Origin: Pelagibacterium luteolum
GTDB taxonomy: Bacteria > Pseudomonadota > Alphaproteobacteria > Rhizobiales > Devosiaceae
Direction of reading: 5' to 3'
Length of the DNA stretch: 64,000 nt
NCBI RefSeq assembly: GCF_900100665.1
Contig: NZ_FNCS01000007.1
Coordinates: 1-64,000 of the forward strand
The stretch's first letter is position 1. Every line of letters begins with the position of its first letter. Made by a program: the position numbers and the translations under genes. Of the stretch, positions 13,864 to 32,516 are shown piece after piece. Below the pieces are notes generated by a model, which saw nothing but the letters and a program-made list of their open reading frames with translations, ran no database searches and had not been told where the DNA came from.

Positions 13864-13943
<80 letters not shown>

Positions 13944-14009: not shown

Positions 14010-14113
14010 TCAGGGGCGCTCGGTTCGGATGAACCGGGGTTCAAGCGTCATCCTGATCTGCTTTGCACCGTCAAGTTTTTCTGGCTAGGGTGCCCGAGAC
14101 TATCGGGGGGCCT

Positions 14114-17000: not shown

Positions 17001-17974
17001 CCTATACCCTCGGACGACTGGAAAAGATCGAGTTGCGCGACATCTGGCGTTCTGAAGCGCATGATTTCACCCCTTGGCTGGCCCGCGAGGACAATATCGC
17101 AATCCTCGGGGACACGTTGAGCATGGAGCTTGAGGTTGAGGCGGAAGAGAGCAATGTCGGGCCATTCCGAGCCGATATTCTTTGTAAGGACCTCGTCGAC
17201 AATTCATGGGTTCTGATTGAAAACCAGCTTGAGCGAACCGATCATACCCACCTTGGCCAATTGCTGACCTATGCAGCCGGATTGCAGACGGTGACGATCA
17301 TTTGGGTTGCCGCTCGCTTCACCGAGGAACATCGCGCGGCGCTCGACTGGCTCAATGAAATAACGGATGAGCGTTTTCGTTTTTTTGGTGTCGAGGTCGA
17401 GCTCTGGCGTATTGGCGATAGTGCCGCCGCGCCAAAATTCAACGTCATCTCCAAGCCGAACGAGTGGTCGCGTTCCGTGTCACAGGCAAGCCGAAGATTG
17501 GAAAACGAGCCTGTCACTGAAACCAAGCAGATGCAGCTCGATTTCTGGACCGAGCTTCAAGGCAGGCTGGAGGGACACAGAACGCTGCGTTCACGGCGGC
17601 CCCGGCCCCAGCACTGGACGACGTATTCGATTGGCCGCTCCGGGATGCATTTGGCTGGTCTGTTCAACACGCGGGACAACCGTGTTGGGGTGGAGCTTTA
17701 TCTGGGTGACGACAACGCAAACGCCTACTTCCAGCAACTAGAACTTCAGCGCCCAGCAATAGAAGCGGAACTTGGTTTTGTCCCCCTCTGGAAGGCCCTG
17801 CCCGAACGCCGCGCGTGCCGCATCATCGTGTATCTTGAAAACATTGATCCGGCTGACCGGTCGCGCTGGCCGGAGTATCATTCATGGATGGTCCGAACAC
17901 TTGAGGCGTTTTCCCGGGTCTTCAAGGATCGCGTGGCCCGGCTCGAAATCGCTCCGCCAGACGGGGAGATGTAG
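16997..17974 (+). CDS. PD-(D/E)xK-like nuclease domain protein with DUF4268, inside the hsd operon
   Basis: 325 aa. The N-terminal 150 residues show a RecB-like nuclease pattern: Asp60 in FRADIL, Glu75-Asn-Gln77 (ExQ in place of ExK) and Gln88-x3-Tyr92, inside VLIENQLERTDHTHLGQLLT. The C-terminal half, rich in aromatic and charged residues, fits DUF4268. It overlaps the hsdS stop (ATGA) and ends 3 bp before hsdR, so it is a true operon member. Role unknown: an extra nuclease, a restriction alleviation factor or an anti-modification sensor. The lysine-to-glutamine change may alter or abolish cleavage. Confidence 0.8.
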   Translation: MTYTLGRLEKIELRDIWRSEAHDFTPWLAREDNIAILGDTLSMELEVEAEESNVGPFRADILCKDLVDNSWVLIENQLERTDHTHLGQLLTYAAGLQTVTIIWVAARFTEEHRAALDWLNEITDERFRFFGVEVELWRIGDSAAAPKFNVISKPNEWSRSVSQASRRLENEPVTETKQMQLDFWTELQGRLEGHRTLRSRRPRPQHWTTYSIGRSGMHLAGLFNTRDNRVGVELYLGDDNANAYFQQLELQRPAIEAELGFVPLWKALPERRACRIIVYLENIDPADRSRWPEYHSWMVRTLEAFSRVFKDRVARLEIAPPDGEM

Positions 17975-17977
17975 CTG

Positions 17978-20900
17978 GTGACCATCGGGGGCGGGGACTA
18001 CATCCAGACTGACACTGACTACTCTCGATCCGGCTTCACCGAGGCGCTTGTCGAGAATGCCGCTGTAGCGATCCTCACTGAGCTTGGCTACGAATTTCGT
18101 CCCGCAACCGAAATAGCGCCCGACGGCACTGCGCCGCTCCGCACGGCTTACGCTGAAATTGTGCTGGAGAGCGTGCTGACGGAGGCAGTTGCCCGCATCA
18201 ATCCAGATGTGCCGTCCGAGGCACGCGAGGCCGCGATCCGGGAAGTCTTTAGAAGCGAGACGCCTTCGCTGGTCGAGGAAAACCGGCGCATCCACAAGCT
18301 GATAGCCGAGGGTATCGACGTCGAGTTCGCTGCCGGAGACGGTGTGTTTCGTGGCGCGAAAGTCTGGTTGATCGATTTTGACGACATCGGGAGCAATGAC
18401 TGGCTGGTCACGACACAGTTCACGGTGGCCGAGAACCGTCGGACACGACGACCCGATATTATGATATTCATCAATGGCCTGCCGGTCGGGATCATCGAAC
18501 TCAAAAATGCTGGCAATGAGCACGTGACCGTCGAGAACGCCTATCGCCAGTTGCAGACATACAAGGCGCAAATTCCCAGCCTGTTTCGCACCAATGCTGT
18601 GATGGTGGCGTCTGACGGCATGCTGGCCCGGATCGGCTCGCTTACCGCCGATGAGGATCGGTTTATGCCTTGGCGCAGTGTGACCGGGGCAGCCGACGAT
18701 TTCACGCCGCACGGTCCCCGCGAGATGGAGACGCTGTTGCGCGGGGTGTTCGATCGGGAACGGTTCCTTGCGCTGATCAGGGATTTCACAGTCTTTGGCG
18801 ATCGCGGCGAAGGGCCGATCAAGATCATCGCCGGTTACCATCAGTTTCACGGCGCACGGAAGGCACTAGACAGTGCCGTAGAGGCTTCGCGGCCCGAAGG
18901 TGACCGCAAGATCGGTGTGATCTGGCACACACAAGGATCGGGCAAGAGTTTGCTGATGGCGTTTCTCGGCGGGCTGGTCGTCCGCTCGGCGGCGCTCGAA
19001 AACCCGACGCTGGTGGTCTTGACTGACCGTAACGATCTCGACGACCAGCTTTACGGCACTTTCAGCCTGTGCAGGGATTTGATCCGCCAGACACCACAGC
19101 AGGCCAATAGTCGGGACGAACTGCGGCAATTGCTCGACCGCGCATCAGGTGGCGTGATTTTTACGACGGTGCAAAAATTCTCGCCGGAAAAGAGTGAGGA
19201 GACATTCCCGGTTCTAACTCAGCGACGCAATGTCATCGTCATGGCTGACGAAGCTCATCGCAGCCAATATGGCTTTGATGCGCGTCTCGACACCAAAACC
19301 GGGCAGCGCCGCTACGGCTTTGCGCATTACATTCGGCAGGCTCTGCCCAACGCCTCGTTCATCGGGTTGACCGGCACGCCCATCGAAGCTGATGACGTCA
19401 ACACGCCCGCGATCTTTGGCGACTACATCGACATTTATGACGTCACGCGCGCGGTTGAGGATAAGGCGACGGTGCCGATCTATTATGAGAGCCGGCTTGC
19501 CCGCATCGAGTTGGACGATGAGGAAAAACCGCGGATCGACGCCGAGATCGAAGCGATCCTTGAAGACGAGGATTTGAGCGAACAGGAAAAGCAAAAGGCC
19601 AAATGGACGACAATCGAGCGTCTGGTTGGCGCTGAAAAGCGCCTCAAGCAAATTGCCTCTGATCTGGTTCAGCATCTTGAAGCGCGCGTCGAGGGCATGA
19701 ATGGCGGCAGGGCAATGGCCGTCTGCATGAGCCGCCGCATTTGCGTAGAGCTTTACAAGCACATCGTCGCCCTACGCCCCAACTGGCATTCAGATGATGA
19801 CGAGCAGGGAGCCATCAAGATCGTGATGACGGGTTCGGCTTCTGATCCCGAGGACTGGCAACCGCATATCGGGCCAAAGCGCCGTCGCGATCTGCTGGCC
19901 AAGCGCGCCCGCGATCCCGATGATCCACTCAAACTGGTGCTCGTGCGAGATATGTGGCTGACGGGTTTTGATGCTCCAGCAATGCACACGATGTATATCG
20001 ATAAGCCTATGCGTGGCCACGGGCTGATGCAGGCCATCGCTCGCGTCAACCGCGTGTTCAAGGACAAGGCGGGCGGGCTGGTTGTCGACTACATCGGCAT
20101 TGCCAGCAATCTCCAAAAGGCAATGGGCCAGTACACGGCCTCGGATCGGTCCAAGACGGGCATTGATGAAGAAGACGCCGTTGCCGCGCTCAAGGAACAG
20201 TTCGAGATCGTGCGCGCGATGTTCCACGGGCACGATTATTCGCTCGGCATCTCCGGCACGCCCCAGCAACGGCTTGTCGCACTTGCCGATGCCATCGAGT
20301 GGATCGGCCAATGGCTCGATGAACAATCGCAGCGAGAGGAGACTACCGAGGGCAAGAAAAGGGCACGGCGGCGGTTCAATGATGCCGTGCTGGCCCTCAG
20401 TGTTGCTTATGGCCTCGCATCGGCCAGCGACTATGCCAAAGCCGTCCGCGACGATATCGGGTTCTTTCAGGCCGTTCGTGCTGCGTTCTCGAAAACGTCT
20501 GTGACTGGCAAGCTGACCAACAGCGCCAAGAATTTCGCTATCGACCAGTTGATGAATGCCGCAGTCGCCAATGCCGAGATCGTCGACGTCTTGAAAGCTG
20601 CGGGCATCAAGTCGCCCGACATATCGATCTTGTCCGAGGCTTTTCTAGCTGAGGTCCAAACAATGGAGCGCAAGAACCTAGCGCTTGAAGCCCTCAAAAA
20701 GCTCATCAACGGCGAAATCACAAGCCGGTCGAAATCCAACGTCGTCGAAGCCAGGACGTTCTTTGCGCGACTTGAGGAAGCAGTCGCCCGCTACCACGCA
20801 AACGCCATTTCCACGGTCGAGATGATCCAGTTCATGATCGACATGGCCAAGGACATCCGGGCGTCGGTGGCGCGCGGAGACGAGTTAGGACTATCCCAGG

Positions 20901-21187
20901 AAGAACTCGCCTTCTATGACGCACTCGCAGTGAATGACAGCGCGGTGGAAGCGATGGGAAACGAGCAGTTGAGGATCATCGCTCATGAACTGGTTGAAAG
21001 CATGCGCGCGTCGGTGACAATCGATTGGCACAAAAAGGTTAGCGCGCGCGCGAAAATGCGAACGCTCGTGCGCCGCATTCTCAAGAAATATGGCTACCCG
21101 CCCGATCTAGAAGCTGAAGCGATCCAGACGGTGATCGCTCAGGCTGAGGCGCTGTTGCGGGAAGTATCCCCGGCGACGGCACCCTAA
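17978..21187 (+). CDS. hsdR: Type I restriction endonuclease subunit HsdR
   Basis: 1069 aa with a GTG start and GGGGAG nine bases upstream. An N-terminal PD-(D/E)xK endonuclease domain ([19 protein letters not shown], about residues 158-176) is followed by a superfamily 2 translocase with Walker A HTQGSGKS (near 316), DEAH (near 421) and TGTP (near 464), and a helical C-terminal domain that docks on HsdM. It cleaves unmethylated DNA after translocation. Full length with no frameshift, so the system appears functional. Confidence 0.95.
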
Positions 21188-21196
21188 GGTTGAGGT

Positions 21197-21562
21197 ATGG
21201 ACCCAATGAGACTATTCCAGATTGCAGCGGCGGCAGTGGTGTTCATCTGTACTGTGGTTCCCGCATCGGCTGAACAAATCTCTCGTTGTGTGTTGGAGGT
21301 ATATTCCGCAACCTTCTTGGACGAACCGTGTAACTTTTCCAGCGGTCGAGACGGCAGTTTCACGATGGGCGTCGGCAACACCGAAAAGGAAGTGTCTCTC
21401 TATTTCGTCTATCTGACCGTCGATGAGGACGACCCAAACGCGGGCTTCGCCTATTGGAACGGCTTTCCGCCAGAAAATCGTGCACATGATCAGCTCGGTG
21501 CGCTGAAAAGGGAAGGGGCGTGCTGGGTGAATGAATTCGTCCGCATTTGCGCTTACCGATGA
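21197..21562 (+). CDS. Small secreted protein of unknown function
   Basis: 121 aa (118 if the second ATG at 21206 is used). A signal peptide ends at ASAE (about residue 26) and the mature part has four cysteines that could form two disulfides. It begins 9 bp after hsdR, so it may be co-transcribed, but a secreted protein is an odd companion to a restriction operon. I do not recognise a family. It converges with the resolvase. Confidence 0.6.
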   Translation: MDPMRLFQIAAAAVVFICTVVPASAEQISRCVLEVYSATFLDEPCNFSSGRDGSFTMGVGNTEKEVSLYFVYLTVDEDDPNAGFAYWNGFPPENRAHDQLGALKREGACWVNEFVRICAYR

Positions 21563-21573
21563 ACCTGGGTTCA

Positions 21574-22128
21574 TCAGTCAGAAAGCACGCGATAGACAGA
21601 TGCGCGGCCAATGTTGAGTTGGCGGGCGATCTCGGTTGCCCCCAATCCCTGCTGCCTTAGTTCTACAATCTCGACTTTTCGATTGCGTACCGTCGGCTTA
21701 CGCCCCTTATACTTGCCCTCGCGCTTCGCCTTCTGGATGCCCTCGCGCTGGCGCTCCAGCATCATTTCTCGTTCGAACTGCGCCATTGCTCCAAACATCG
21801 TCAACATGAGCTTGCCCGTAGGCGACTTTGTGTCGACCTCGCTGCCGCCGAAGTTGAGAATGCGCAGACCAACTCCTTTGCGCTCCAACTGGTCCAGAAT
21901 TGCAAGAAGGTCGGCGGTGGACCGTGCAAGGCGATCCAGCTTTGTTACAACGAAGGTATCGCCATCACGAACAAATCCCAGCGCATTTTCAAGCTCGGCC
22001 CGCTGCGAAACAGACGATACCTGCTCTTCGAAAACTCTCTCCACCCCTGCGAGCGCCAAATCTCGTCGCTGAGCCTCCAACCCTGCAACTTGATCAGCCG
22101 TTGATGTACGCGCGTAACCCACTAGCAT
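21574..22128 (-). CDS. Serine recombinase (Tn3/invertase resolvase family)
   Basis: 184 aa from the ATG at 22128 with GGAG 7 nt upstream. The catalytic domain carries the nucleophile Ser in YARTSTADQ, the arginines in VTKLDRLARS and the E-helix linker (MLTMFGAMAQFEREMM). A C-terminal Hin-type HTH follows (GATEIARQLNIGRASVYRVL). Such enzymes resolve cointegrates or invert segments at short res/gix sites. No transposase is nearby, so it may act on the island itself. Candidate res repeats lie directly upstream. Confidence 0.9.
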   Translation of the reverse strand: MLVGYARTSTADQVAGLEAQRRDLALAGVERVFEEQVSSVSQRAELENALGFVRDGDTFVVTKLDRLARSTADLLAILDQLERKGVGLRILNFGGSEVDTKSPTGKLMLTMFGAMAQFEREMMLERQREGIQKAKREGKYKGRKPTVRNRKVEIVELRQQGLGATEIARQLNIGRASVYRVLSD

Positions 22129-22165
22129 TGTTCGCTCCTGTCTCTTTAGCATCTTAGATATTATA

Positions 22166-22205
22166 AGACATTTGTCTCACAATGTCATAACTATGTGTAT
22201 GAGAC
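22166..22205. promoter_or_regulatory. Candidate res/operator site upstream of the resolvase
   Basis: Overlapping inverted repeats: AGACA-TT-TGTCT (22166-22177) and GTCTCA (22174-22179) facing TGAGAC (22200-22205). They begin 38 bp upstream of the resolvase start, where res sites of Tn3-family elements usually lie. The rest of 22206-22435 shows nothing I recognise. Confidence 0.4.
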
Positions 22206-22435
22206 GCTGTGCGAAAAATTAGCCATGTCTCGCTAGACCCCGCTCAATTGGGATGATGTCAAATCCCACCTCACCGGAGCGAGCCAGCGTCCCGCTCCCA
22301 ATGGGTCTTCGAGACCGAGGTGAGGTTTCCTGAAAGCTGGTAGTGTCTCAGTTTGAAATTCAGCCTGATTGACGCCCCTATCGCACCCGCCGCCGAGATC
22401 CTATATGCTTGCCCTAGAGCATAGGAGGGATATTG

Positions 22436-22810
22436 ATGGCGCAATATGCAATAGCATTCGACTTGGATACCGCTGGCATGAAGAGCCAAGGCGGAATGTC
22501 ACCAGCTGACGTGACACGAGTTTATCAGACGGAGATACCTTCCGCGCTTGCATCATGCGGATTTACCGCACATCCGCAGGGATCTCTGTATCATACGGAA
22601 CTCGATCATGATCCAATAACCGCGTTAATGACTTTGCAAAGTGCTCTTCAACAGCAGGCACCTAGTTTCTGCACGTGGGTGCGCAGGGTCCATGTATTCC
22701 GCATGGAGGAGTGGAGCGACGTTACGGCACTAATTGCAAACCGACCGGCTGCCCCTGCACCTGATGCGGAGGAGGAAATTGAAGAGCAGGAAGCAATGGC
22801 TGCGGAGTAA
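22436..22810 (+). CDS. VapD-like protein (Cas2-fold endoribonuclease family)
   Basis: 124 aa, ATG at 22436 after an AGGAGGG ribosome site. The N-terminus QYAIAFDLDT, the later GFTAHPQGSLY and the VRRVHVFRMEEWSDV segment follow the order seen in virulence-associated protein D, whose characterised members are RNases with a ferredoxin-like fold like Cas2. The expected catalytic acid is Asp9. A C-terminal acidic, alanine-rich tail is extra. No clear antitoxin partner is next to it. Family call rests on motif order only. Confidence 0.65.
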   Translation: MAQYAIAFDLDTAGMKSQGGMSPADVTRVYQTEIPSALASCGFTAHPQGSLYHTELDHDPITALMTLQSALQQQAPSFCTWVRRVHVFRMEEWSDVTALIANRPAAPAPDAEEEIEEQEAMAAE

Positions 22811-22874
22811 TCATACTAACCGGACCTAAAAGATAGAAGCGCCCTGCTGATGTGATCGGCAATGCCCAAAGGTT

Positions 22875-23015
22875 ATGTGCCTTGCCACTGGCGACGAAGT
22901 TGAGACCATCGTTGACGATGGCATAGACCGCGCCGCTAAGGCGCTTGGCACGAAGGGCGGCAGGAAGCGCGCCGAGGACACGACGTCCGAACGCCTTGCC
23001 GAGATTGCGCGATAG
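22875..23015 (+). pseudogene. Short frame or remnant with an AAKALG-KGG-style segment
   Basis: A 46-codon frame from ATG to TAG containing AAKALGTKGGRKRAEDTTSE and ending RLAEIAR. This resembles a segment common in small basic proteins and at the C-terminus of some plasmid-borne proteins, where it normally continues. Only a weak ribosome site precedes it. It may be a decayed end of a gene or a real small protein. Confidence 0.25.
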
Positions 23016-23055
23016 GTAGCAGATAAGCGTTGGGGAAAAGCTGACGGCAATTGAC

Positions 23056-23101
23056 CGCGATAATTTTTCATGCCACACATGAGGAGGAAAAAATTATCGC
23101 G
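23056..23101. promoter_or_regulatory. 13-bp perfect inverted repeat before the ImmA module
   Basis: CGCGATAATTTTT (23056-23068) and AAAAATTATCGCG (23089-23101) are exact inverted copies, separated by 20 bp that hold a nested CATG-N5-CATG and a GAGGAGG. It ends 5 bp before the start of the next gene. It may be an operator for the HTH-ImmA protein or an RNA hairpin that controls translation. Confidence 0.55.
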
Positions 23102-23106
23102 AGGCC

Positions 23107-23754
23107 ATGTGGATGCTAGCCGAAAAGATCTATGCCGACAGCTGGGAAGCTGACGCTAGGTTGGTCCCGTTCCGGATTACACGGGCCGAACTCATCGAAG
23201 TTGCAAAGAAGACCGTCGCAGAAAGGTCTAATACCATCGACGTTGACATAGCGGGGGCGGCCGGAACATTGGCCTATCTTCACGGAAGCAGGCATCTACG
23301 GCTTCTCGCGATGTCGAAGGGCTATCAACTGAGCCGCGAGAAGAACATTGAGGCGTCGATCGATGTAAAATCGGGCATCATGATCGCCTATCAGAATGTA
23401 GATGTCGCCTGTTCCAAGTTCCGCTCTCCGAAGGCGATCCATGGAAAGAAATCGGGCTCTGCCGACATCATCGATCGTGCACAGGGTTCGCTGTTTGCAC
23501 CGGATGCGATCCCGGAGATGGTCGATCTGAAATCTCTTCGTGAATTGAACTCAACGGTTTGGTATTTTTGCGTCTCCTTCACCGAGGACAGTTTTAGTGC
23601 CGAACTGTCGCTGCCGACCTCACTAAGGGGCGATAACTTTAACGGCTTTTTCGAGCGCATTTTCATAGCGCAGGGTCAGGAATGGTTTGGCAAGCCTGCC
23701 GAGACGACTGACGACGACTATGCCGAGCTTGAGCCGCGTATAATGCGCAAGTAA
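23107..23754 (+). CDS. Unknown protein paired with an ImmA/IrrE regulator
   Basis: 215 aa (or from the second ATG at 23113, which has better spacing to GAGG at 23101-23104). No signal peptide or membrane segment. It has mixed alpha/beta character and a central AAGTLAYLHGSRHLRLLAMSK-like stretch. I recognise no family. It ends 6 bp before the HTH-ImmA gene and shares its upstream inverted repeat, so the two form a unit. It could be the protease's substrate, an effector, or a sensor. Confidence 0.65.
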   Translation: MWMLAEKIYADSWEADARLVPFRITRAELIEVAKKTVAERSNTIDVDIAGAAGTLAYLHGSRHLRLLAMSKGYQLSREKNIEASIDVKSGIMIAYQNVDVACSKFRSPKAIHGKKSGSADIIDRAQGSLFAPDAIPEMVDLKSLRELNSTVWYFCVSFTEDSFSAELSLPTSLRGDNFNGFFERIFIAQGQEWFGKPAETTDDDYAELEPRIMRK

Positions 23755-23760
23755 CAGAGA

Positions 23761-24840
23761 ATGTTCAACATTAAGCGACTTGAATTGGCCCGGAAGCGGC
23801 GCCGATATACCTCAAGGATTCTTTCCGAGAGGGCCGGCATTGCGCCGGTTACCTTGTCTCGTGTTCTGAATGGAAAACAGATACCTGACGAAGAGACTAA
23901 GGCTCGATTGATTGCAGCTCTCGGTTTTCCTCCGGGATTTTATCAACTCGACGACCCTGATGAGATTGAAACGCAGTCGGCCAGCTTTCGAAGCTTGAGT
24001 GGGATGACGGCAAAGGAGCGAGATGCCGCTCTTGCAGCGGGTTCCATTGCGTTTGAAATCGCAGACTGGTTGAACGCAGCTTATAGCCTTGACGAACCGG
24101 ACTTGCTGGACTTGGAGCATGAACGGGATCCCGCTGTCGCAGCCCGAACGGTTCGGCAGCACTGGGGTCTCGGTGAAAAACCGATAGGAAACCTAATCAA
24201 GATACTGGAAGCGAAAGGCGTTCGCATCTTTTCGTTGTCCGAAACCACGAAAAATGTGGACGCGTTTTCGCTTTGGCGAAACGACGAACCCTTCATTTTT
24301 CTCAATACTTTTAAGTCGGCAGAGCGCAGCAGATTTGATGCGGCGCACGAGCTAGGACATCTCATCCTGCACAAGCACGGTGGCCCTCAATATCGCTCGG
24401 CCGAAATGGAAGCGAATTTGTTTGCTAGCTCGTTTCTCATGCCCGAAACCGATGTGAAAACGAGACTGCCTTATGTGACTAGCCTCAACAAGATCATCCA
24501 GGAAAAGCAGCGGTGGCGCGTTTCAGCAGCCGCTCTTTGCTATCGGTTGCACAAGCTCGGGATCATTAGCGACTGGCAAAATCGAACGTTCAACATCCAG
24601 CTCAATCAGCGATTTGGAAAGCAAGAGCCCCACGGCATCTTGCGTGAAAAATCCGGCATTTGGCGGATGGTTTTTGACGATCTTTGGCAGCAGAGAAAGT
24701 CCAGAGCGAGCATAGCGCAAGACCTGAGCATTCCCGAAAGCGAACTTGAAAACCTCGTCTTTGGATTGGCTGCCGAAGGCTCCAGTTCGCGCCCCGAACT
24801 TCCGGCAGAAGGACCGTCCCCCCTGCGGCTTGTGAAGTGA
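23761..24840 (+). CDS. XRE-type HTH fused to ImmA/IrrE metallopeptidase
   Basis: 359 aa. Residues 1-60 form a Cro/CI helix-turn-helix (SERAGIAPVTLSRVLNGK). Residues about 140-260 form a zinc peptidase of the ImmA/IrrE family with His196-Glu-Leu-Gly-His200 and likely third ligand Glu217 in EMEANLFASSFLMP. A helical C-terminal region follows. In mobile elements such proteins cleave a repressor to trigger gene expression; here regulator and protease are one chain. The only obvious partner is the unknown gene directly upstream. Confidence 0.85.
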   Translation: MFNIKRLELARKRRRYTSRILSERAGIAPVTLSRVLNGKQIPDEETKARLIAALGFPPGFYQLDDPDEIETQSASFRSLSGMTAKERDAALAAGSIAFEIADWLNAAYSLDEPDLLDLEHERDPAVAARTVRQHWGLGEKPIGNLIKILEAKGVRIFSLSETTKNVDAFSLWRNDEPFIFLNTFKSAERSRFDAAHELGHLILHKHGGPQYRSAEMEANLFASSFLMPETDVKTRLPYVTSLNKIIQEKQRWRVSAAALCYRLHKLGIISDWQNRTFNIQLNQRFGKQEPHGILREKSGIWRMVFDDLWQQRKSRASIAQDLSIPESELENLVFGLAAEGSSSRPELPAEGPSPLRLVK

Positions 24841-25058
24841 ACCTTTATGCGTGACGCTAAGCATAGAGTTCCTATAAAGAGGGCATCAACAAGTTGCCTT
24901 TAAAACCCGTGCCCAAATCTTCTCCATGCTTTGCGGAGGCGTGTGGATGCGCGAAAGCGTCCATCGCTTGAAACGTAATATCAACGGCGATTGCAGCATG
25001 TGCCTCACCTGACAACGGCTCTGCTACTCAAGCCCTCCACCATTGGTCGCTGCTGCTC

Positions 25059-26462
25059 TTAACTCGGGTCCTTGTCCCCTGATTTGGGCTTCTTGCGCGA
25101 CAGATAATCAATGATCGCGTTGAAGTTAATACCGAACCCAAAAAGGCTAGGCTGCAGGATTAGGAAATTGGCATAGGTGCCAAGACCACCCGCCGTTGTG
25201 TCTGACTTGACCTGTTTGCCGGCGAGCATGTCAGTGACGTTCACGAGCAATTCAAGGCGCTGAGTGTTGAAGACCGGCTCGGACGATTTCAGCTGCTTGA
25301 GCATATTGAGCGCAGTGTTCAACATGGGCATTTTTTTCGCGGCGAGTGCCACCACTCCATAGCAATGTGTATAATCTTCGAATTCCCGGCCCACCAGGAG
25401 CCGGGTATCAGCCTTTTCTAGCTCGGCCACGGCACGGTCCACCAGCCCTCGTCGAAGCAAGCACTCAGCGACGTAGACCTGGTCCAGCCCCAACCCTCCA
25501 ATCGCTACTGCGTCGCGATAAACTTGTTCGGCGATCTCGAAGTTCCCGGCGTAACGATGCGTGTCGCCCAACTCCCGCAAGATTTTGGCGCGCCCCAGAT
25601 CGGTCCAGCAGTCTTCTTCGAGTAGCATTTCGAATTCTGTGGTGGACCGGCGCATTAGGTCGGCATCCCTTCTGAGCGAGCCAAGCAGCTGAAGGACGCC
25701 GGCGAACAAGTGACGCTCGCGAACGTCGAAGGGATCTGCCTCGCGGGTCGACTGGGCCCGGGCGACGACATCATCCAAAATTTCCCCGGCAGTCTTTCGG
25801 TCATCGATAAGATAATACTGGATGGCCTTGCCGGTTCGGTATTGCATTTGATTGCTGCGTTCCTCGCTGAGCTGGAGGATGCGGTCGAGAATAGACATGC
25901 GATCGGCGAAGGCCAGATCGTCGAATTCGAGGTCGACATAGATCTGGAGGAGCTCAAGGTCGGTCTCCTCATTGGTTATCGGCCCCAGTTTGGCCAGCTC
26001 ACGACGCCCGGCGATACGATCGCCCTTCGGCCCCAGATATGAAAGTGCCAGATAATAGCCGACCTTTCGATACCACTTATCGTGCTCGATATTGCCCCTT
26101 AGGCGGCCAAGCGCAGCGCGCCAATCGCTCCAAAGATCGAGACGGAGATAGAGGGTAAAGAGGCGCCCGACGTATGCGCCTAGGGCGTCGACGTCTATTT
26201 GGAGAAGATTGGGAAGCATGTGGGCGCGATGCATGAGCGGCGCCGTATGAGACTTGTGCCAAATCGTGTATTGAGTGATGTCAGCTCGCGCGCACAAGAG
26301 GGCACGTTCCAGCTGACCGTCCTTAATGGCCATCGAATAGGCCTTGCCGATGTTTGCGGAGGGCAGGCGCCGGTGGCAACAGTTTTTGTATTTCTTTTCC
26401 GAAGCGCAGGGACACGGAGCGCTCCACTTGGGTTTCCAGCCTCGAAATTCGCGCGCTGCCAT
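25059..26462 (-). CDS. SEC-C zinc-motif protein with TPR-like helical repeats
   Basis: 467 aa. The N-terminus carries a SEC-C zinc motif, CPC (Cys17, Cys19) followed by YKNCCH (Cys28, Cys29/His30), unusually at the start of the chain instead of the end. The remaining 430 residues are helical with TPR-like periodicity (GDTHRYAGNFEIAEQVYRDA, then a further repeat). This suggests a protein- or nucleic-acid-binding scaffold. Last gene of a minus-strand run with the M15-like and PD-(D/E)xK genes. The 218 bp between the ImmA gene and this one (24841-25058) holds nothing recognised. Confidence 0.6.
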   Translation of the reverse strand: MAAREFRGWKPKWSAPCPCASEKKYKNCCHRRLPSANIGKAYSMAIKDGQLERALLCARADITQYTIWHKSHTAPLMHRAHMLPNLLQIDVDALGAYVGRLFTLYLRLDLWSDWRAALGRLRGNIEHDKWYRKVGYYLALSYLGPKGDRIAGRRELAKLGPITNEETDLELLQIYVDLEFDDLAFADRMSILDRILQLSEERSNQMQYRTGKAIQYYLIDDRKTAGEILDDVVARAQSTREADPFDVRERHLFAGVLQLLGSLRRDADLMRRSTTEFEMLLEEDCWTDLGRAKILRELGDTHRYAGNFEIAEQVYRDAVAIGGLGLDQVYVAECLLRRGLVDRAVAELEKADTRLLVGREFEDYTHCYGVVALAAKKMPMLNTALNMLKQLKSSEPVFNTQRLELLVNVTDMLAGKQVKSDTTAGGLGTYANFLILQPSLFGFGINFNAIIDYLSRKKPKSGDKDPS

Positions 26463-26772
26463 GGACCTATTCCTTGTAAATCAGGTTGAGTATCGGTACC
26501 GCAGGCGCTGGCGTCAAATCGAGCTTCCAGGTCATCAGTTCTAATGTGGCAAGAGCGCAGTGCGAACTCACGATCAGGAAAGGCTTCGTGCCGAGCCCTG
26601 CCGTGAGCTAAGCAGCCACTATCGAGCGGCGTTGCCAGGACCACTCAGATGCGTCGGCCCCACTAATGACCCAGCACTCCTTCTATCCCGTTTACTGTAC
26701 CTGGGTTCAATCTTGCTGAAACACGGCGTGCTGCGCTGAAGCTGCTGTCTTGCGCCGCCAAAGGTTGACACC
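26463..26772. other. Intergenic interval, nothing recognised
   Basis: 310 bp between two minus-strand genes. No frame with a ribosome site and no clear terminator or repeat. It could hold a separate promoter for the SEC-C gene, so co-transcription with the M15-like gene is uncertain. Confidence 0.4.
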
Positions 26773-27333
26773 TCAATTCGTAGCCGGATCTCGAAGCAGC
26801 CAATGGGGGCTCGGCAACCGAGAATATATTTCTTTTCTCGGCTTCTCATGCCAGCCAATATTGAAGGCGTTATCCAAGCTGAAAAACGTAAGCCTATGAT
26901 AGGGCATCGCCTCGTGGATGTACCACGCGAGCTGTTTCCAGCTATCGGGCTCAGTTGCAGTCGCGTTGAATGATGGGATCACGACGCAGGCTGCGGCACC
27001 TATGTGACCAGCCGCATCGCGATGGTCCCAAATATGGTATGCGAAATTCTTCTCGTTTGATGCGCATTTCAACCCGTTGCGAGCGCCGAAGTCATTAAGC
27101 TTCGCGGATCGAAAGCCAGACCGCACGACAATCGGACCGAACTTCCTGACAAGTGGTTCCAGAATTTGCTCGCACAACTGGGTTCCAGTCTCGACAGCGA
27201 GATCGGGATTGTCGGGAACGTTGGCAATGCCAAACGCTGCCCCGATCTCTGAGTATAAGAATTGCCGCATATAGAAGTTTTGTGAGAGCCGAATGCGACC
27301 AAGTTTTTCCAGTCGCCAAAACAGGTCCTTCAT
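26773..27333 (-). CDS. Divergent M15-like (DD-peptidase/hedgehog fold) protein
   Basis: 186 aa. The first half follows the M15 pattern closely: LSQNFYMRQFLYSE, then EPLVRKFGPIVVRSGFRSAKLN. The metal site is altered: the usual SxHxxGxAxD is replaced by AGHIGAAACVVI with no aspartate in register, while YHIWDHRD and NIGWHE supply other His/Asp residues. There is no signal peptide, so a peptidoglycan role would need release by lysis. It may be a repurposed or inactive member. 61 bp downstream of the PD-(D/E)xK gene. Confidence 0.5.
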   Translation of the reverse strand: MKDLFWRLEKLGRIRLSQNFYMRQFLYSEIGAAFGIANVPDNPDLAVETGTQLCEQILEPLVRKFGPIVVRSGFRSAKLNDFGARNGLKCASNEKNFAYHIWDHRDAAGHIGAAACVVIPSFNATATEPDSWKQLAWYIHEAMPYHRLTFFSLDNAFNIGWHEKPRKEIYSRLPSPHWLLRDPATN

Positions 27334-27394
27334 TTTTCCGCCACCAGCAACTCGTTTTCGGTTACCACCAGTCTACATTAAGTTTTTGTCTTCT

Positions 27395-28621
27395 CTATGT
27401 TTTTTCCAGATTGTTCGCGCCCAGCCATTGAGAGCAGAAGGGGCGGAAAGTCGAAACCATTGCATTGGCCGATGCCAGAAACCAAGCGCGGAGAACATCG
27501 TCCTCTTGGGCGACGCCGGGATAGCGAACACGCACACATCCTTGAAAGGGATTGGCCTTTTCAGCTTCTAAGTACATCGGCATTCCCAATTGCTCTTCGA
27601 GCGCCTCAGAGGCGTTCTGGATGGCTGCATACGCCGCCTCGCCCTCCTCTCCCCTTAGACGGAATAGGATGCCCGCTGAGCCGTCGCTGAGCTTATAGAC
27701 GGTCATGGAGTTGATTGGTGGCGGCATCGCCAACTTCACCCACCCCGCGCCGCCATGCCGAGGCTTGGGTTGGTCAGCGTGGTCGAACACCGCCTCGTCA
27801 ATGAAGCGCTGCCAGAAGGCTCTCTGCTGCTCCCAGAGCAGGCTACGCTCCGGGTCGCCTATGTCGCCCTCATCTTGGCCGGAGCCGTCCCCATCGGGCT
27901 CCAGGTGGATGGGATATCCATCCTGCGCAACAATGACCCGATGTTTGATGACCTCGGTGCGAAGGGGCACTGAGGGCACAACCATTGTCTTTCCGTCGGA
28001 CCCCTCCCAAAGCTGAAATTCCACCAGGGCGAGCTTCGACGATAACCCGCTGCTGTTGTTCAGGTGCGCCGCGATTGCATCAATGTCAGAGCGTATTCCG
28101 TCGCCTGCAATGACGAGGTTGAAATCGCCAGCTTTGAGAGAGTGCGTTACTCTGTCGACAAACAGTGCCTCGTCTAATTGAGGGAAGGCTTTTTGGGCAA
28201 TCTCGAACAAGGGGTTCGGGCCGGTTAACCCCAGGCTGCTCTTTAGCCTTGCATTTAGATCTGCGTATGACCAACGCCGGAGCAGTGAGGCATATTCCAG
28301 GATTTGTGCAACGACCTCGCGGCGCGCTTGGGGATTACGCCACAATTTACATTCAACCAGGACAAGCTTGCCCTCGGCGGTGACGCCAAAGATATCAAGG
28401 AACACGGTACCGCCCTCTTTTGGAAGGCTCAATTCTCGACAGACGGGCACGTATCCAGCACTGCCTGGAGAAATGTCTGCAATCGGCAGCAGTTCAGGGC
28501 GGACGAACAATAGTTCCTGTAGCCACTTCTCGTTGCGCCCAGTTTCTGTGGAGGCGAGGGAGGAGCGGTGCAACCATTCTCCTTGTTCAAAATCATCCTC
28601 GTTCAGCACCAACGACTGCAT
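27395..28621 (-). CDS. PD-(D/E)xK nuclease-like protein
   Basis: 408 aa from the ATG at 28621, which has a GGGGG ribosome site; the frame is open to a TTG at 28672. The N-terminal 120 residues show a canonical RecB-like nuclease core: Asp76 in FLDIFGV, Glu90-Cys-Lys92 in LVLVECKLW and Gln106-x3-Tyr110 in QILEYASLL. The remaining 290 residues are unknown, perhaps a sensor or DNA-recognition domain. It is divergent from an XRE regulator (114-bp gap) and probably leads the minus-strand operon with the M15-like and SEC-C genes. Confidence 0.65.
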   Translation of the reverse strand: MQSLVLNEDDFEQGEWLHRSSLASTETGRNEKWLQELLFVRPELLPIADISPGSAGYVPVCRELSLPKEGGTVFLDIFGVTAEGKLVLVECKLWRNPQARREVVAQILEYASLLRRWSYADLNARLKSSLGLTGPNPLFEIAQKAFPQLDEALFVDRVTHSLKAGDFNLVIAGDGIRSDIDAIAAHLNNSSGLSSKLALVEFQLWEGSDGKTMVVPSVPLRTEVIKHRVIVAQDGYPIHLEPDGDGSGQDEGDIGDPERSLLWEQQRAFWQRFIDEAVFDHADQPKPRHGGAGWVKLAMPPPINSMTVYKLSDGSAGILFRLRGEEGEAAYAAIQNASEALEEQLGMPMYLEAEKANPFQGCVRVRYPGVAQEDDVLRAWFLASANAMVSTFRPFCSQWLGANNLEKT

Positions 28622-28735
28622 ACCACCCCCAAAGCTGCCCAGTCCGCGAGTTCTGTAGTTGAACTCCGGCAAATACGAAAATTACGCATCTCGGCATCAT
28701 GGATAGTAATTCCACCCGGATCAAGGCTCCGGGTC

Positions 28736-29077
28736 ATGACAGATCAGCTTTCCCAACTCAAAAAGTCTATCGGAAGTCGTGTTCGCTTGGCGCGAAAGAT
28801 GGCTGACCTCACCCAAGAGGATTTGGGCGCCCAGGTCGGACGGTCGACCGAGGCAATCTCAAATATCGAGCGCGGTGTGAGCTTCCCGCCCATCGAGACC
28901 CTGGCAGCCATTGCCCGAGCGCTAAATGTCGAATTGGCTGGTTTCTTTCAGACCCGTGATGGGCAACGTTCACAGCGACGGACTGAGCTTGAAATCGAAA
29001 TTCAGCTCAAAGTTGCTGCGATGGAAGGTGACCGAGCAGAGTTGGCGTTAAAGCTCATTGACGCGCTGCGCGAATAG
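28736..29077 (+). CDS. XRE-family transcriptional regulator
   Basis: 113 aa from the ATG at 28736; the upstream in-frame extension overlaps the divergent gene and is not credible. Residues 10-65 are a Cro/CI HTH (RKMADLTQEDLGAQVGRSTE, AISNIERG), followed by a short helical tail (ALKLIDALRE) that could dimerise. By position it probably represses the divergent PD-(D/E)xK operon and itself. Confidence 0.8.
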   Translation: MTDQLSQLKKSIGSRVRLARKMADLTQEDLGAQVGRSTEAISNIERGVSFPPIETLAAIARALNVELAGFFQTRDGQRSQRRTELEIEIQLKVAAMEGDRAELALKLIDALRE

Positions 29078-29241
29078 CGAAAAACGGCATTTTAAACATC
29101 CCTATGGAGTGTGACATTTTTTGCCATCGCGACCGATGAAGTCCAGCGGCCTGTAAAGCAATTTGTTGCCCAGTCGACAACCGGTCTGAAAACTCTACCC
29201 GTATCATTCATAGGCTCATGCCCCCAGTGAGCTGAGCAAAA

Positions 29242-29394
29242 ATGCTTGCAGAACTAGTTCGCCAGGCGTCCGCTTCAGTGGAGTGCCGGGTAGTCTCCTC
29301 TGATCGCCAACATATCGATGTCATGCTTTCTGGAAATTTCTTGCTTCTAGAGGGGATGGATGAACGCGCAAGGACGAAGTCCGAAGCGAGTTAA
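29242..29394 (+). CDS. Possible 50-aa protein
   Basis: A complete frame, starting MLAELVRQAS and ending TKSEAS, in an otherwise empty 434-bp interval (29078-29511). The ribosome site is weak and no family is recognised. Listed because nothing else explains the left part of the gap. Confidence 0.2.
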   Translation: MLAELVRQASASVECRVVSSDRQHIDVMLSGNFLLLEGMDERARTKSEAS

Positions 29395-29398
29395 GTAG

Positions 29399-29520
29399 TA
29401 ATAATAAATAGTGTTGTTTTATTCGTATTATTAAGGGGAGAGTATTTCATACGGAGCTGATCAAAATGCATACGGGCGCATTCAAAAAACACACAGAAAA
29501 AATATAGAAATTCATACTGG
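29399..29520. repeat. AT-rich repeat region at the end of the winged-helix gene
   Basis: TAATAATA (29399-29406) faces TATTATTA (29426-29433) as a perfect inverted repeat. It is followed by three CATAC(G/T)GG-type direct repeats at 29448, 29469 and 29513, spaced 21 and 44 bp, about two and four helical turns. It is the most A+T-rich stretch in the window. Iteron-like spacing beside a possible replication protein suggests an origin, but a promoter/operator array is equally possible. Confidence 0.35.
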
Positions 29521-30144
29521 AGTTTGTGTGTTTTCGAAGGTTACCTTGAAGAACCGCTGCACGATGAAGCACTCCAGTTCGCTGAGGCTTTCGCTAGCGA
29601 ACTCAACGCTGGGAAGCGCATTTGGCCACGGGACTTGGTTGCGGTCAAATATTGCCACAAGGCATTTTTGGCTAATCGGTGAGAATGCATGAACCTTGCG
29701 GGATGCTGTGTGCATTTCGTACCGGCTGATTGCACCCTGGTCCACAAGCGAGGTCAGCGCGCGTCTTACCGTCAACTTGTCTAAGCCGGTCCCAGAAAAA
29801 TATGGCACGCCGTAGCTGTCGAAATGCGGTTCAGTTCTGTCCATTGGATCACGCATTCCCCGGCTGAATACGTCCAATGGGATCACCTCAATCACTTTCC
29901 TCCACGCAAGTGTCCGAGCAGAGATTGCGGCCAAGACTGCGTATTGGCTCGCCTTCAGTTTGCCGAGTAGGTAGCGTTCCATTATCTGTTTGTGGATCGC
30001 TCTTAGGTCGGTCATTACTCGTTCGCTCGCGGCATTGGTTGCATCAATTTGTCGCCGCGTTACTAGGGGGCCGCCTGGCGGGTTTGGGAAGGGCATGGGT
30101 TGGCTCGCTCCAACGTTGGAAGACACGTCTGTTAAAGTTGGCAT
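29512..30144 (-). CDS. Winged-helix protein resembling phage replication/regulatory proteins
   Basis: 210 aa. The central region (about residues 60-165) has winged-helix order: LKASQYAVLAAISARTLAWR, then LDKLTVRRALTSLVDQGAIS and a wing ending VHAFSP. This is the layout of RepO-like phage replication initiators and plasmid replication regulators. The proline-rich N-terminus is unstructured. It starts 16 bp after alpA on the same strand, so it is part of the integrase operon. Replication or transcription role cannot be separated from sequence alone. Confidence 0.5.
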   Translation of the reverse strand: MPTLTDVSSNVGASQPMPFPNPPGGPLVTRRQIDATNAASERVMTDLRAIHKQIMERYLLGKLKASQYAVLAAISARTLAWRKVIEVIPLDVFSRGMRDPMDRTEPHFDSYGVPYFSGTGLDKLTVRRALTSLVDQGAISRYEMHTASRKVHAFSPISQKCLVAIFDRNQVPWPNALPSVEFASESLSELECFIVQRFFKVTFENTQTPV

Positions 30145-30160
30145 CCTAGGGACACCTGCT

Positions 30161-30418
30161 CTACCGGCGCTCCTTCTTCAAATCAGGAATTGACGAAGTT
30201 TCATTCGCCTCTAGCCAAGCTCGCAGTCTTTCGACGCTGTAAAGAATTCGCTTGCCAAGTCTGGTGAAAGGGGGGCCACGACGCTCCATGCGCCATTTAG
30301 CCAACGTCGTGCGATGAACGCCTATCTCTTCAGCAAGTTCTTCGGTTGTCAGAAAGCCATCGAGGATAGTAGGGCCAACCTTGCCGCTTCCTGCCTGCCG
30401 ATCTCTATCGCTTTTCAT
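30161..30418 (-). CDS. AlpA-type/excisionase helix-turn-helix protein
   Basis: 85 aa with an AAGGGA ribosome site. The core FLTTEELAEEIGVHRTTLAK followed by RRGPPFTRLGKRILYSVERL is the MerR-like HTH_17 domain of AlpA and excisionases. AlpA proteins of P4-like and phage-inducible islands activate int or excision; Xis proteins bend att DNA. Position between int and the winged-helix gene supports that job here. Confidence 0.8.
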   Translation of the reverse strand: MKSDRDRQAGSGKVGPTILDGFLTTEELAEEIGVHRTTLAKWRMERRGPPFTRLGKRILYSVERLRAWLEANETSSIPDLKKERR

Positions 30419-30505
30419 AGTATCCCTTTCTTGTCAGTGATTTTGTTCACCGATGGATAAGGGAACGATGGCGCAGGATAACTGAAAAAAACGCAGCAGA
30501 AATTT

Positions 30506-31030
30506 TCAGTCGTTTTGGCGACCACCCTTGGGCCTGCCGTTGCGAGCAATTGCCCGCTCCTCGATCCTCCTGTTGAACTCTAAGCCAGCGTCATCGTCTG
30601 CGGTCTGCGGATCAACGCGCATTTCCTCCTGCCGATATTGGTGATAGCGGCGGCGCCTATCGGGGTCGTGCAGTCCCTCTTCCTTAAGCGCTTGATCGAG
30701 GGGGATCGGTGCCTTCCCGGTGTGCCCGAGATGCTTATCAATCGCTCGCTTGTATAGGGCTTGGTCCTTGTCCTCGAATACGGGTCTGGCAGATGTCGAC
30801 CGGAGGCGCTTCCGTTCCAAGCGAGTTAGGCCTCTAATGAGTTCTGCATATTCCCGGCACGCTTCGAAGGCCCATTGGGGAATTACCTGATCCCCATCGA
30901 AAAAGCTGCTCTTGGGCCGGCCGATTGCTATTACGAGGTACCTGAGGTCGCCAGTCTTGCGGAAAAGCCGTTCGGCATCTAGATATGCGTTTGCATCTAG
31001 GCCTTCGGGGACTTGATCAGAGGGGGCGAT
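30506..31030 (-). CDS. Unknown protein coupled to integrase, probable ATC start
   Basis: The frame is uninterrupted from 31060 (stop at 31061-31063) to 30506 but contains no ATG or GTG; the only usual start is a TTG at 30820. A perfect AAGGAG (31038-31043) inside the end of int stands 7 nt before an ATC at 31028-31030, giving 174 aa and a 14-nt overlap with int. The part upstream of 30820 looks coding (AYLDAERLFRKTGDLRYLVI, PQWAFEACREYAELIRGL), so a TTG start giving 104 aa would cut a folded domain. The C-terminal half is charged and arginine-rich. Family unknown. Confidence 0.6.
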   Translation of the reverse strand: MAPSDQVPEGLDANAYLDAERLFRKTGDLRYLVIAIGRPKSSFFDGDQVIPQWAFEACREYAELIRGLTRLERKRLRSTSARPVFEDKDQALYKRAIDKHLGHTGKAPIPLDQALKEEGLHDPDRRRRYHQYRQEEMRVDPQTADDDAGLEFNRRIEERAIARNGRPKGGRQND

Positions 31031-32312
31031 CTGAATTCTCCTTAGACAAAATGTTTCCGATCAGCTCCGTCGCTGCGCGTTGTGGATCATCTGAGAGATG
31101 GGCATACCGTTGCGTGGTTTGGGCTTGGGTGTGACCGAGCAATGCGCCGATCAACGGCAGCGAAGCGCCACTGCTGACGAGCAGCGAGGCGTAAGTATGC
31201 CGTAGATCATGGATCCGAACTCCTTGAAGACCGGAAGGTAACGATAGCTCATGCGCTTTCGCAAAGGAGTGTAGCTCAGCCAAAGTCGGCTGCCGATCTA
31301 GCAACGTTCCTAATTGAGCTTCTAACTCGGGGAAGCCGACGACTGATCTCCAAATATGGATGGTACCAACGCTGACAAGGTTGTCCCATGTTTTTCTCAC
31401 GTCTTGAAGCGGACCCACTTTGGTGGGCGACGGGAAGACAAAACGGGTTGAGAGCATTTTTGCCTGGACCGATTTCAGGAGGGCGATGGCGGCTCCCGAA
31501 AGCGGCACCTTGTGTACCTTACGCTGTTTTGTGTGGTGAGATGGCTTGATCCATACTTCAGCACCAAAATCGATGTTGGCCCACTCCGCTTTCAAAGCCT
31601 CACTTTTGCGGGCGCCTGTCAACATGATCAGTCGAATAGCATCCAAGCTCGTCGATGGTCCGTGAGCATTCATGGCCCAAGCAAGGCTCGCGAGCTCTGC
31701 TTTGCCAAGATATCGATCACGCGGTTGTTCTGGATTTTTCCTGACGCCCACAGCAGGGTTTTTCTCTAGCCAGCCCCATCGCACCGCGAGATTTAACGCC
31801 TTTCTCAGCACCTCGATCACCCGATTGGCCCTCACCGGTCTGTCGCGCGTTATTTCGCGGTGAAGAGCATCCACATCAGCTGCAGTGAGGTCTTTTACTT
31901 TCACTTGGCTGAGCCGGGGCAGGATTAATCCCTGCCACATAGACTTGTCGTCCGCTGCCGAGCGTTGTGCCTTGGTTGGCAAGTGCTCGATGCAATAGCG
32001 GTCAAAAAGATCTTTGACAGTGGGCGCTGACTTTTCAGCGTTGCGTAGCGAGAGCGGATCACTGCCGAGATCAATCTGCCTTTTCAAATGCGCAGCCTGC
32101 TCTCGGGCTCGCGCGACAGACCATTCCGGATATGACCCAATGGTAAGGCGCCGCTCTCGCTTTCCAGCACGATAGTTTAAGATGAAAGCCTTGCTGCCGT
32201 GAGCGGTGACGCGGCAACCAAATCCTTTCAACTCGCCACAGTAAGTGATCTTATTGCCGCTTGGGGGAAACGGGAGGGAACGCACGATCTTGTCCGTCAG
32301 CTTTTCGCTCAT
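31017..32312 (-). CDS. int: Tyrosine-type site-specific integrase
   Basis: 431 aa from the ATG at 32312; the frame continues to a GTG at 32387 that would add 25 unlikely residues. It has an N-terminal arm-binding domain (DUF4102-like, starting KLTDKIVRSLPFP), a core-binding domain and a catalytic domain with Arg in LTGARKSEAL, the HxxR box HDLRHTYAS and the nucleophile Tyr in LGHTQAQTTQRYAHL. An insertion of about 55 residues precedes the HxxR box. It recombines the 53-bp tRNA site and lies 150 bp from attR, the usual place. Confidence 0.95.
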   Translation of the reverse strand: MSEKLTDKIVRSLPFPPSGNKITYCGELKGFGCRVTAHGSKAFILNYRAGKRERRLTIGSYPEWSVARAREQAAHLKRQIDLGSDPLSLRNAEKSAPTVKDLFDRYCIEHLPTKAQRSAADDKSMWQGLILPRLSQVKVKDLTAADVDALHREITRDRPVRANRVIEVLRKALNLAVRWGWLEKNPAVGVRKNPEQPRDRYLGKAELASLAWAMNAHGPSTSLDAIRLIMLTGARKSEALKAEWANIDFGAEVWIKPSHHTKQRKVHKVPLSGAAIALLKSVQAKMLSTRFVFPSPTKVGPLQDVRKTWDNLVSVGTIHIWRSVVGFPELEAQLGTLLDRQPTLAELHSFAKAHELSLPSGLQGVRIHDLRHTYASLLVSSGASLPLIGALLGHTQAQTTQRYAHLSDDPQRAATELIGNILSKENSDRPL

Positions 32313-32315
32313 ATC

Positions 32316-32337
32316 GTGTCCGCACTGTGTCCGCAAT
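32316..32337 (+). repeat. Candidate integrase arm-type site, right
   Basis: The copy of the 22-bp double GTGTCCG element found at 13988-14009, differing at two positions and in the same orientation. It overlaps the region just upstream of the int ATG, so integrase binding here could also repress int. Confidence 0.5.
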
Positions 32338-32463
32338 CTAGTCACTATAGCGTGCGATACATCGGTATTCAACGCAACGTAGTCCACGCTAAATTTAACA
32401 TGAAAAACAATGCGTTTCGCCTATATACTCAGCAATGCTAGGGTTTTCGTGAACTTGCTGAAC

Positions 32464-32516
<53 letters not shown>

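Follow-up and report, generated by a model that had tools for sequence, protein, structure and literature searches.

A conserved nuclease and M15-fold protein cassette, possibly Shield-like, on a tRNA-Met island of Pelagibacterium luteolum

The first 64,000 nucleotides of contig NZ_FNCS01000007.1 of Pelagibacterium luteolum (hereafter the window) contain a genomic island in which a divergent XRE regulator, a PD-(D/E)xK nuclease, and a small protein with the fold of M15 peptidases form a cassette that recurs at other loci. A first-pass annotation had proposed a new three-gene defence system here, composed of the nuclease, the M15-like protein, and a SEC-C/TPR protein. That specific claim fails, and what stands is a conserved nuclease/M15 cassette together with a large, unnamed family of proteins that have the M15 fold but no intact zinc site and have joined nucleases in several lineages. 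The explanation that we tentatively prefer, a little short of calling it probable, is drawn by analogy: the XRE, nuclease, and M15 genes would constitute a mobile, Shield-like anti-phage cassette of nuclease and regulator.

Sequence comparison and structure modelling point in this direction through the constant gene order and spacing of the cassette, the falling of its M15 proteins into one group, the invariant residues of the nuclease, and the confidently predicted M15 fold. Further points in its favour are that other lineages of the M15 family join nucleases, that the M15-fold protein ShdB of the Shield system offers a precedent, and that the cassette lies on a tRNA-associated island with a type I restriction system and a RosmerTA-like pair.

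The cassette and its nuclease

Four open reading frames (ORFs) lie where the first-pass annotation placed them, at 25059-26462, 26773-27333, and 27395-28672 on the reverse strand and 28568-29077 on the forward strand. The overlap of the called regulator and nuclease ORFs is an artefact of longest starts; homologues favour an ATG at 28736 for the regulator, whose ORF was listed from a GTG at 28568, and an ATG at 28621 for the nuclease, listed from a TTG at 28672. With these starts the XRE/HTH_3 regulator (HTH_3 E=1.6e-11) is a 113-residue protein encoded at 28736-29077 on the forward strand, divergent to the nuclease as had been described, and it has homologues in the same place of 118 and 121 residues in loci L003 and L004, and one also in L005. 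The nuclease gene occupies 27395-28621 on the reverse strand, and the 114 bp between the divergent starts (28622-28735) presumably hold a shared promoter and operator. A short inverted repeat, ACCCGGA/TCCGGGT, is present in this space at 28714-28734; it was considered as part of a common operator and rejected, as L004 and L005 have different repeats and none is present in L003.

The M15 gene (26773-27333, reverse strand, 186 residues) starts 61 bp after the nuclease stop codon. The layout is constant in the five loci that carry the cassette (the window, the sister island of Pelagibacterium sediminicola, L002, and loci L003, L004, and L005): a divergent XRE gene, the nuclease, a space of 52–63 bp, and the M15 gene. 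Compared with the window proteins, the nucleases of L003, L004, and L005 have 62%, 51%, and 54% amino acid identity, respectively, and the M15 proteins 76%, 64%, and 66%. The proposed unit of three same-strand genes does not hold: XRE, nuclease, and M15 co-occur in all five loci, whereas SEC-C has no match in the other four and lies outside the conserved cassette. Six intact M15 proteins with at least 60% identity were found among the fetched loci, those of the five cassette loci and that of L152, and the nuclease accompanies five of the six; in a 92-row tree the six form one group (support 100/94). Locus L026 retains only the second half of an M15 gene, has no nuclease match, and shares its upstream genes with L004, and looks like a deletion remnant. 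Reverse transcriptase genes are present near M15 in L004 and L006.

These loci were assembled in part by querying about 85,000 species genomes with short peptides taken from the window M15 protein, a scan that returned 25 loci and favours close relatives. Gene calls in fetched loci are mechanical longest ORFs, with the M15 frame masked by another ORF in 19 loci, and the fetched flanks are at most about 6 kb, often shorter.

Members of the PD-(D/E)xK superfamily share a D...ExK core with a QxxxY motif. The nuclease core had been described as intact, and so it is: Asp93, Glu107-x-Lys109, and Gln123-xxx-Tyr127 (28292-28396, reverse strand; numbering of the 425-residue ORF) are invariant in 19 aligned sequences, from which L204 (broken by stops) and L198 (overlong frame) were left out. 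By these motifs the protein is a predicted member of the superfamily, NucS/RecB-like. Its profile matches NucS in the PDB at E=0.014 (positions 37-101) and a designed protein at E=0.005 (positions 313-384); a single-sequence PDB search with it gave nothing. The predicted model has a mean predicted local distance difference test score (pLDDT) of 80, and Foldseek finds no PDB match for it at E<=0.001; YbjN and NucS/EndoMS, with matched ranges unstated, stand at the top of the list, and we would assign the YbjN resemblance to the C-terminal half. No membrane segment was found by hydropathy, which was used without a dedicated predictor; the top 19-residue value, 1.41, is at residue 90 in the core.

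Profiles of the PADLOC phage-defence candidate PDC-S11 match the nuclease (best E=2.6e-8), but only partially, over 58 and 133 residues. Residues 281-413 match the PDC-S11 profile whose full match on the island bears DUF4268 over the same part, and we refer to this region as a PDC-S11/DUF4268-related C-terminal domain. Neither the Pfam DUF4268 model nor PF02646 (RmuC) has a listed match to the nuclease at E<=1. The island protein in question, a full-length PDC-S11 protein with DUF4268 (16997-17974), is encoded within the type I restriction operon, with the S gene on one side and the R gene on the other, and has a C-terminal domain similar to the one in the cassette nuclease.

Matches to the nuclease are present in 18 of 397 genomes of the order and in seven of 136 genomes of the family. 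Nine genomes have a match at E<1e-50, and an M15 gene adjoins the nuclease in three of these (G000, G128, and G096). The neighbour counts exclude the matches at E 8e-5 to 1e-3 (G020, G055, and G107, corresponding to L177-L179; G140, G226, G320, and a second match in G207). XRE-type genes face more distant nuclease relatives in L206 and L208 (from the printed sequences) and in L211 (an annotated regulator). In two genomes, G365 (L112/L198) and G316 (L133/L204), an M15-like gene is present as well as a nuclease relative, the two lying far apart or on separate contigs; the nuclease of G316 is broken by stops.

An M15-fold family without an intact zinc site

The label M15-like describes the fold of the 186-residue protein correctly but not its zinc site, in which two ligands are replaced. 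Pfam M15_3 (PF08291) matches at E=0.17 only and the endolysin family phrog_894 at E=3e-7, and the predicted model (pLDDT 93.9) matches 18 models of a viral library at E<=0.001 in Foldseek, several of them named M15, with a probability of 1.0 to viral M15 models. Matches to M15 enzymes in the PDB are not significant: Foldseek with the model gives a best match that is VanY-like (E 0.47), the family profile gives nothing, and a single-sequence search gives one match at E=0.52. An alignment of hidden Markov models (hhalign) with eight viral M15_3-type proteins has 99% probability and 30% identity over 133 columns, and the family, which is unnamed, is related to the phage M15_3 endopeptidases.

We take the SxH, xAxD, and WxH residues of the viral proteins to be zinc ligands (His, Asp, and His) and their Glu to be catalytic. 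The hhalign columns place these ligands opposite His100, Val117, and Asn158, with the catalytic Glu lying in an alignment gap. Among 107 distinct members of the family, the first zinc His is kept as His100, position 117 (the zinc Asp column) is Ile, Val, or Leu throughout, and position 158 (the second zinc His column) is always Asn; Cys90, His100, Asp103, Asn158, and Trp161 are invariant. A Glu is found at positions 147-151 in 42 of the 107 and in none of the window, L003, L004, and L005 proteins; from these alignments, loss of the Glu is not general in the family. Because the zinc Asp and the second zinc His are replaced family-wide, and the catalytic Glu is not conserved, a role as a zinc peptidase is unlikely, in contrast to the phage endolysins that share the fold. 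An active M15 peptidase acting on peptidoglycan was considered and is disfavoured by the loss of zinc residues and by the lack of a visible hydrophobic N-terminus or secretion signal. The Cys, His, Asp, and Asn residues could instead serve as an active site of the cysteine type or line a binding pocket.

Matches to the family are present in 46 of 397 genomes of the order (two only partial), in 31 of 385 of the class (eight weak or partial), and in 38 of 398 in a sample of the phylum, 21 of them strong; many of the weak phylum matches cover the N-terminal part only and may be ordinary phage M15 proteins. A relative on a Nostoc plasmid (L212:1202-6639) adjoins a NACHT protein and is 51% identical to the window copy despite the distance between the phyla.

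For comparison of gene neighbourhoods we used 108 distinct M15 loci, a count that drops six loci (L002 and L143, both the sister island; L113, L154, and L155, refetches of L007, L021, and L024; and L010, a plasmid copy of L009). L175, a refetch of L003, was not entered, M15 matches shorter than 140 residues were not counted, and near-identical viral contigs remain among the 108. Seven loci are nuclease-positive: four have the cassette nuclease, L022 has a fused DUF6946 domain, L023 an adjacent RmuC, and L015 an adjacent DUF2130; the RmuC, DUF2130, and DUF6946 probes came from L023, L015, and L022 themselves, so these three are not independent counts. We take Pfam clan CL0236 to be the PD-(D/E)xK clan, and DUF2130 to be RmuC-like. 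According to the respective reports, DUF6946 is assigned to CL0236 (PMC10584680) and RmuC belongs to the PD-(D/E)xK superfamily (PMC10270631).

The fusion, in Novosphingobium sediminis (L022:1062-2366), is a natural one of DUF6946 with an M15-like domain. In the other two loci, both from gammaproteobacteria, the M15-family gene lies directly after RmuC (L023, 2433-11704) or directly before DUF2130 (L015, 820-8805), and both stretches include WYL, DUF4258 (below the Pfam cut-off in L023), and a large AAA/RNase H-like protein. These stretches resemble defence operons, and L023 looks Shield II-like, outside Pseudomonas. L015 and L023 pair in the tree; this pair, the cassette group, and L022 (placed with less than the best support) are separated from one another, and because of this separation the link between M15 and nuclease probably arose more than once.

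A broader proposal, which we regard as unlikely in its full extent, is that the family is a new class of enzyme or sensor. It would have an endolysin scaffold with the zinc site rebuilt around Cys90, His100, Asp103, and Asn158, perhaps as a cysteine-type hydrolase or a signal-binding pocket. It would be mostly a solitary accessory gene in Proteobacteria and at least one cyanobacterial plasmid, repeatedly wired to PD-(D/E)xK nucleases as a control subunit, with ShdB as one instance.

The island and the exchanged SEC-C gene

The genome that holds the window is 4.3 Mb in 50 contigs. The island is approximately 18.6 kb in length and is bounded on each side by a perfect 53-bp copy of the tRNA-Met 3' end (13891-13943 and 32464-32516), with a tyrosine integrase (31017-32387; PF00589) at its right end. 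It carries a type I restriction system (14063-21187), and the earlier description of an island with restriction is borne out. Other cargo includes a serine recombinase of the resolvase family (21574-22152, reverse strand; PF00239 E=1.2e-40) and a RosmerTA-like pair, RmrT and RmrA (23107-24840; PADLOC E=1.4e-33 and 3.5e-144).

The SEC-C gene (25059-26462, reverse strand) is separated from the M15 gene by the 310-bp gap that had been pointed out. Its SEC-C motif is supported at E=4.4e-5, whereas the TPR matches that completed its original name are below cut-offs. The sister island of P. sediminicola (L002/L143), carried by genome G128 of the same genus, is 99.5% identical to the window by blastn over 26783-32514, a stretch that includes the XRE, nuclease, and integrase genes and almost the whole of M15, and about 93% identical to 19814-22253; no blastn match was reported for 22254-26782. 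The junction of this exchanged block falls within the M15 gene, 10 bp before its end. In place of the window's RosmerTA-like pair and SEC-C, the sister island carries a PLD-like protein and a reverse transcriptase there (L002:6832-9861). Because the sister island swaps 22254-26782 while keeping XRE, nuclease, and M15, SEC-C lies outside the cassette; membership as a third component is ruled out by this exchange and by its absence from L003-L005, and comparison of the islands identifies it as an unrelated, later neighbour acquired by cargo exchange.

The distribution of SEC-C differs as well. It is matched in one of 136 family genomes, the window's own, and its plasmid relatives comprise 13 records, all from rhizobia. 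The neighbours in four of these records are AAA ATPases in two (in one with a methyltransferase and an endonuclease), TIR and caspase genes in one, and hypothetical proteins in one, and none of the four has a nearby match to the nuclease, M15, or XRE. In a Bradyrhizobium BTAi1 plasmid (L220:2555-11371), a SEC-C relative lies amid DUF2130, metallophosphoesterase, caspase, TIR, and Fic genes.

At all four cassette loci, relatives of the serine recombinase are encoded no more than 5 kb from M15, with 64–73% identity (97% in the sister island); other recombinase matches among the 108 M15 loci are 29–40% identical, within limited flanks. The recombinase is possibly the vehicle of cargo exchange, acting through a resolvase site; its membership in the cassette is unproven. 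Repeats of the GTCTC/GAGAC type, seen by eye in the printed loci, precede the recombinase gene (window 21574-22253), and the start of the cargo exchange with the sister island is near repeats of this type.

Relation to Shield and competing explanations

The first-pass annotation knew of no described system with its combination of genes. The exact set was not found in the searches made of open-licence PMC papers, but Shield II is a system of the same kind. As described in the Shield report, the RmuC nuclease ShdA protects from phage, and ShdB, found in subtypes II and III, is predicted to adopt an M15 fold, lacks a signal peptide, and leaves growth unaffected when exported; a two-hybrid test showed its interaction with ShdA, whose level falls in the presence of ShdB (PMC10270631). 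As in Shield II and III, an M15-fold protein that lacks a signal peptide lies downstream of a nuclease of the PD-(D/E)xK superfamily in the cassette, and in both cases relatives of the nuclease also occur alone. In L023, RmuC comes immediately before another member of the M15 family, and a WYL gene lies farther upstream. The likeness to ShdB is one of fold, position, and lack of a signal peptide, drawn from descriptions, not sequences. Unlike ShdA as described there, the cassette nuclease belongs to another family than RmuC and lacks a membrane segment at its N-terminus; the XRE regulator belongs to the cassette; and the host is an alphaproteobacterium, whereas the authors found Shield only in Pseudomonas (PMC10270631). 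Because of the different nuclease family, the lack of a membrane anchor, and the XRE pairing, we do not class the cassette as Shield. Among plasmid-borne RmuC genes, the six records examined of 64 show no match to the M15 family, and a Pseudomonas aeruginosa plasmid with an M15 match has no RmuC listed nearby in a plasmid gene table that is incomplete.

Likenesses to other systems are more limited. PDC-S11 resembles the nuclease through its profiles, but these match partially and no PADLOC model matches the M15-fold protein at E<=0.1. RosmerTA, according to its report, also ties a peptidase-fold protein to defence (PMC10440598), and the RosmerTA-like pair lies next door; it consists, however, of separate genes on the exchanged block, and its peptidase domain is of the M78/ImmA type, not M15. 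The predicted but unvalidated defence domains named by DefensePredictor include an M15 family peptidase, and that family may differ from the one described here (PMC13092281).

If the cassette is a Shield-like defence system, XRE would repress the shared divergent promoter and keep expression low. The nuclease, in which the catalytic residues are conserved, would be the effector and attack DNA when triggered, with its C-terminal DUF4268-related domain serving in regulation or partner binding. The M15-fold protein would be the regulatory partner, restraining or gating the nuclease by direct contact, by analogy with what ShdB appears to do with ShdA; it may sense the trigger, and its invariant Cys, His, Asp, and Asn could bind that trigger or form a new active site.

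Several observations weigh against this proposal. Promoter and terminator sites are no more frequent than in shuffled sequences, leaving co-transcription unsupported, and L152 belongs to the cassette M15 group without having a nuclease. Six of the nine genomes with strong nuclease matches (G052, G237, G280, G365, G371, and G397) have no M15 gene beside the nuclease, and around the intact, approximately 50% identical nuclease of L197 (from G280) there is no M15 or cassette-type XRE match within about 5 kb. The four nuclease families are near M15 in seven of the 108 loci and in none of the other 101 within the fetched flanks, with the RmuC, DUF2130, and DUF6946 probes finding no further case. 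Because these 101 loci are without the probed nucleases, the M15 protein must also serve a role apart from them.

The strongest of the alternatives, which we consider unlikely yet serious, is that the nuclease and M15 genes are neighbours and not partners, with separate single-gene accessory functions, hitch-hiking on one kind of island. It draws on 15 further M15 loci at which one neighbour was scanned, ten of these neighbours being metabolic or housekeeping genes, one a secreted protease of the serralysin type, and four without a Pfam match; on the nuclease family, which is without M15 in 17 of 21 loci, the other four being cassette loci chosen partly through M15; and on the resolvase-family recombinase common to all cassette loci, which suggests common vehicles. 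Set against these are gene order and close spacing kept at 51–62% nuclease identity while other neighbours differ, and the fusion or abutment of other M15-family lineages with nucleases. A strict toxin-antitoxin pair, in which the nuclease kills unless M15 neutralises it, would accord with two genes under an XRE regulator, with the drop in ShdA level when ShdB is co-produced (PMC10270631), and with the peptidase domain of RmrA-type antitoxins (PMC10440598), a likely example of which is encoded nearby. It is nevertheless improbable: L197 and more distant nuclease relatives have no nearby M15, the two are not always paired, the effector gene comes first, and an antitoxin acting by zinc-peptidase degradation would require two zinc residues that M15 lacks.

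A type IV-like restriction system holds out a similarly slim prospect. Here the nuclease would read modified phage DNA through its C-terminal DUF4268-related domain, with M15 as an accessory; DUF4268 occurs in GmrSD-family type IV enzymes (PMC4619093), residues 281-413 match the profile described above, and the cassette is without a methyltransferase, but the Pfam DUF4268 model misses the nuclease, and the best Foldseek matches, non-significant and with ranges unstated, are to YbjN and not to a base-reading domain. The single operon of nuclease, M15, and SEC-C that was originally envisaged has the common strand of its three genes to recommend it and is scarcely credible, given that SEC-C is unmatched in the four other cassette loci, belongs to the block for which the 99.5% identical sister island has other genes, with a junction 10 bp inside the end of M15, and has four relatives away from nuclease, M15, and XRE.

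If the Shield-like reading is true, the combination of a DNA-cutting effector with an M15-fold control protein would be a recurrent design in bacterial immunity and no peculiarity of Pseudomonas, and the poorly understood ShdB would gain a large family with clear candidate residues. The fold of a phage lysis enzyme, its zinc site emptied, would then have been reused inside the cell, a reuse that the automatic label 'peptidase M15' conceals.

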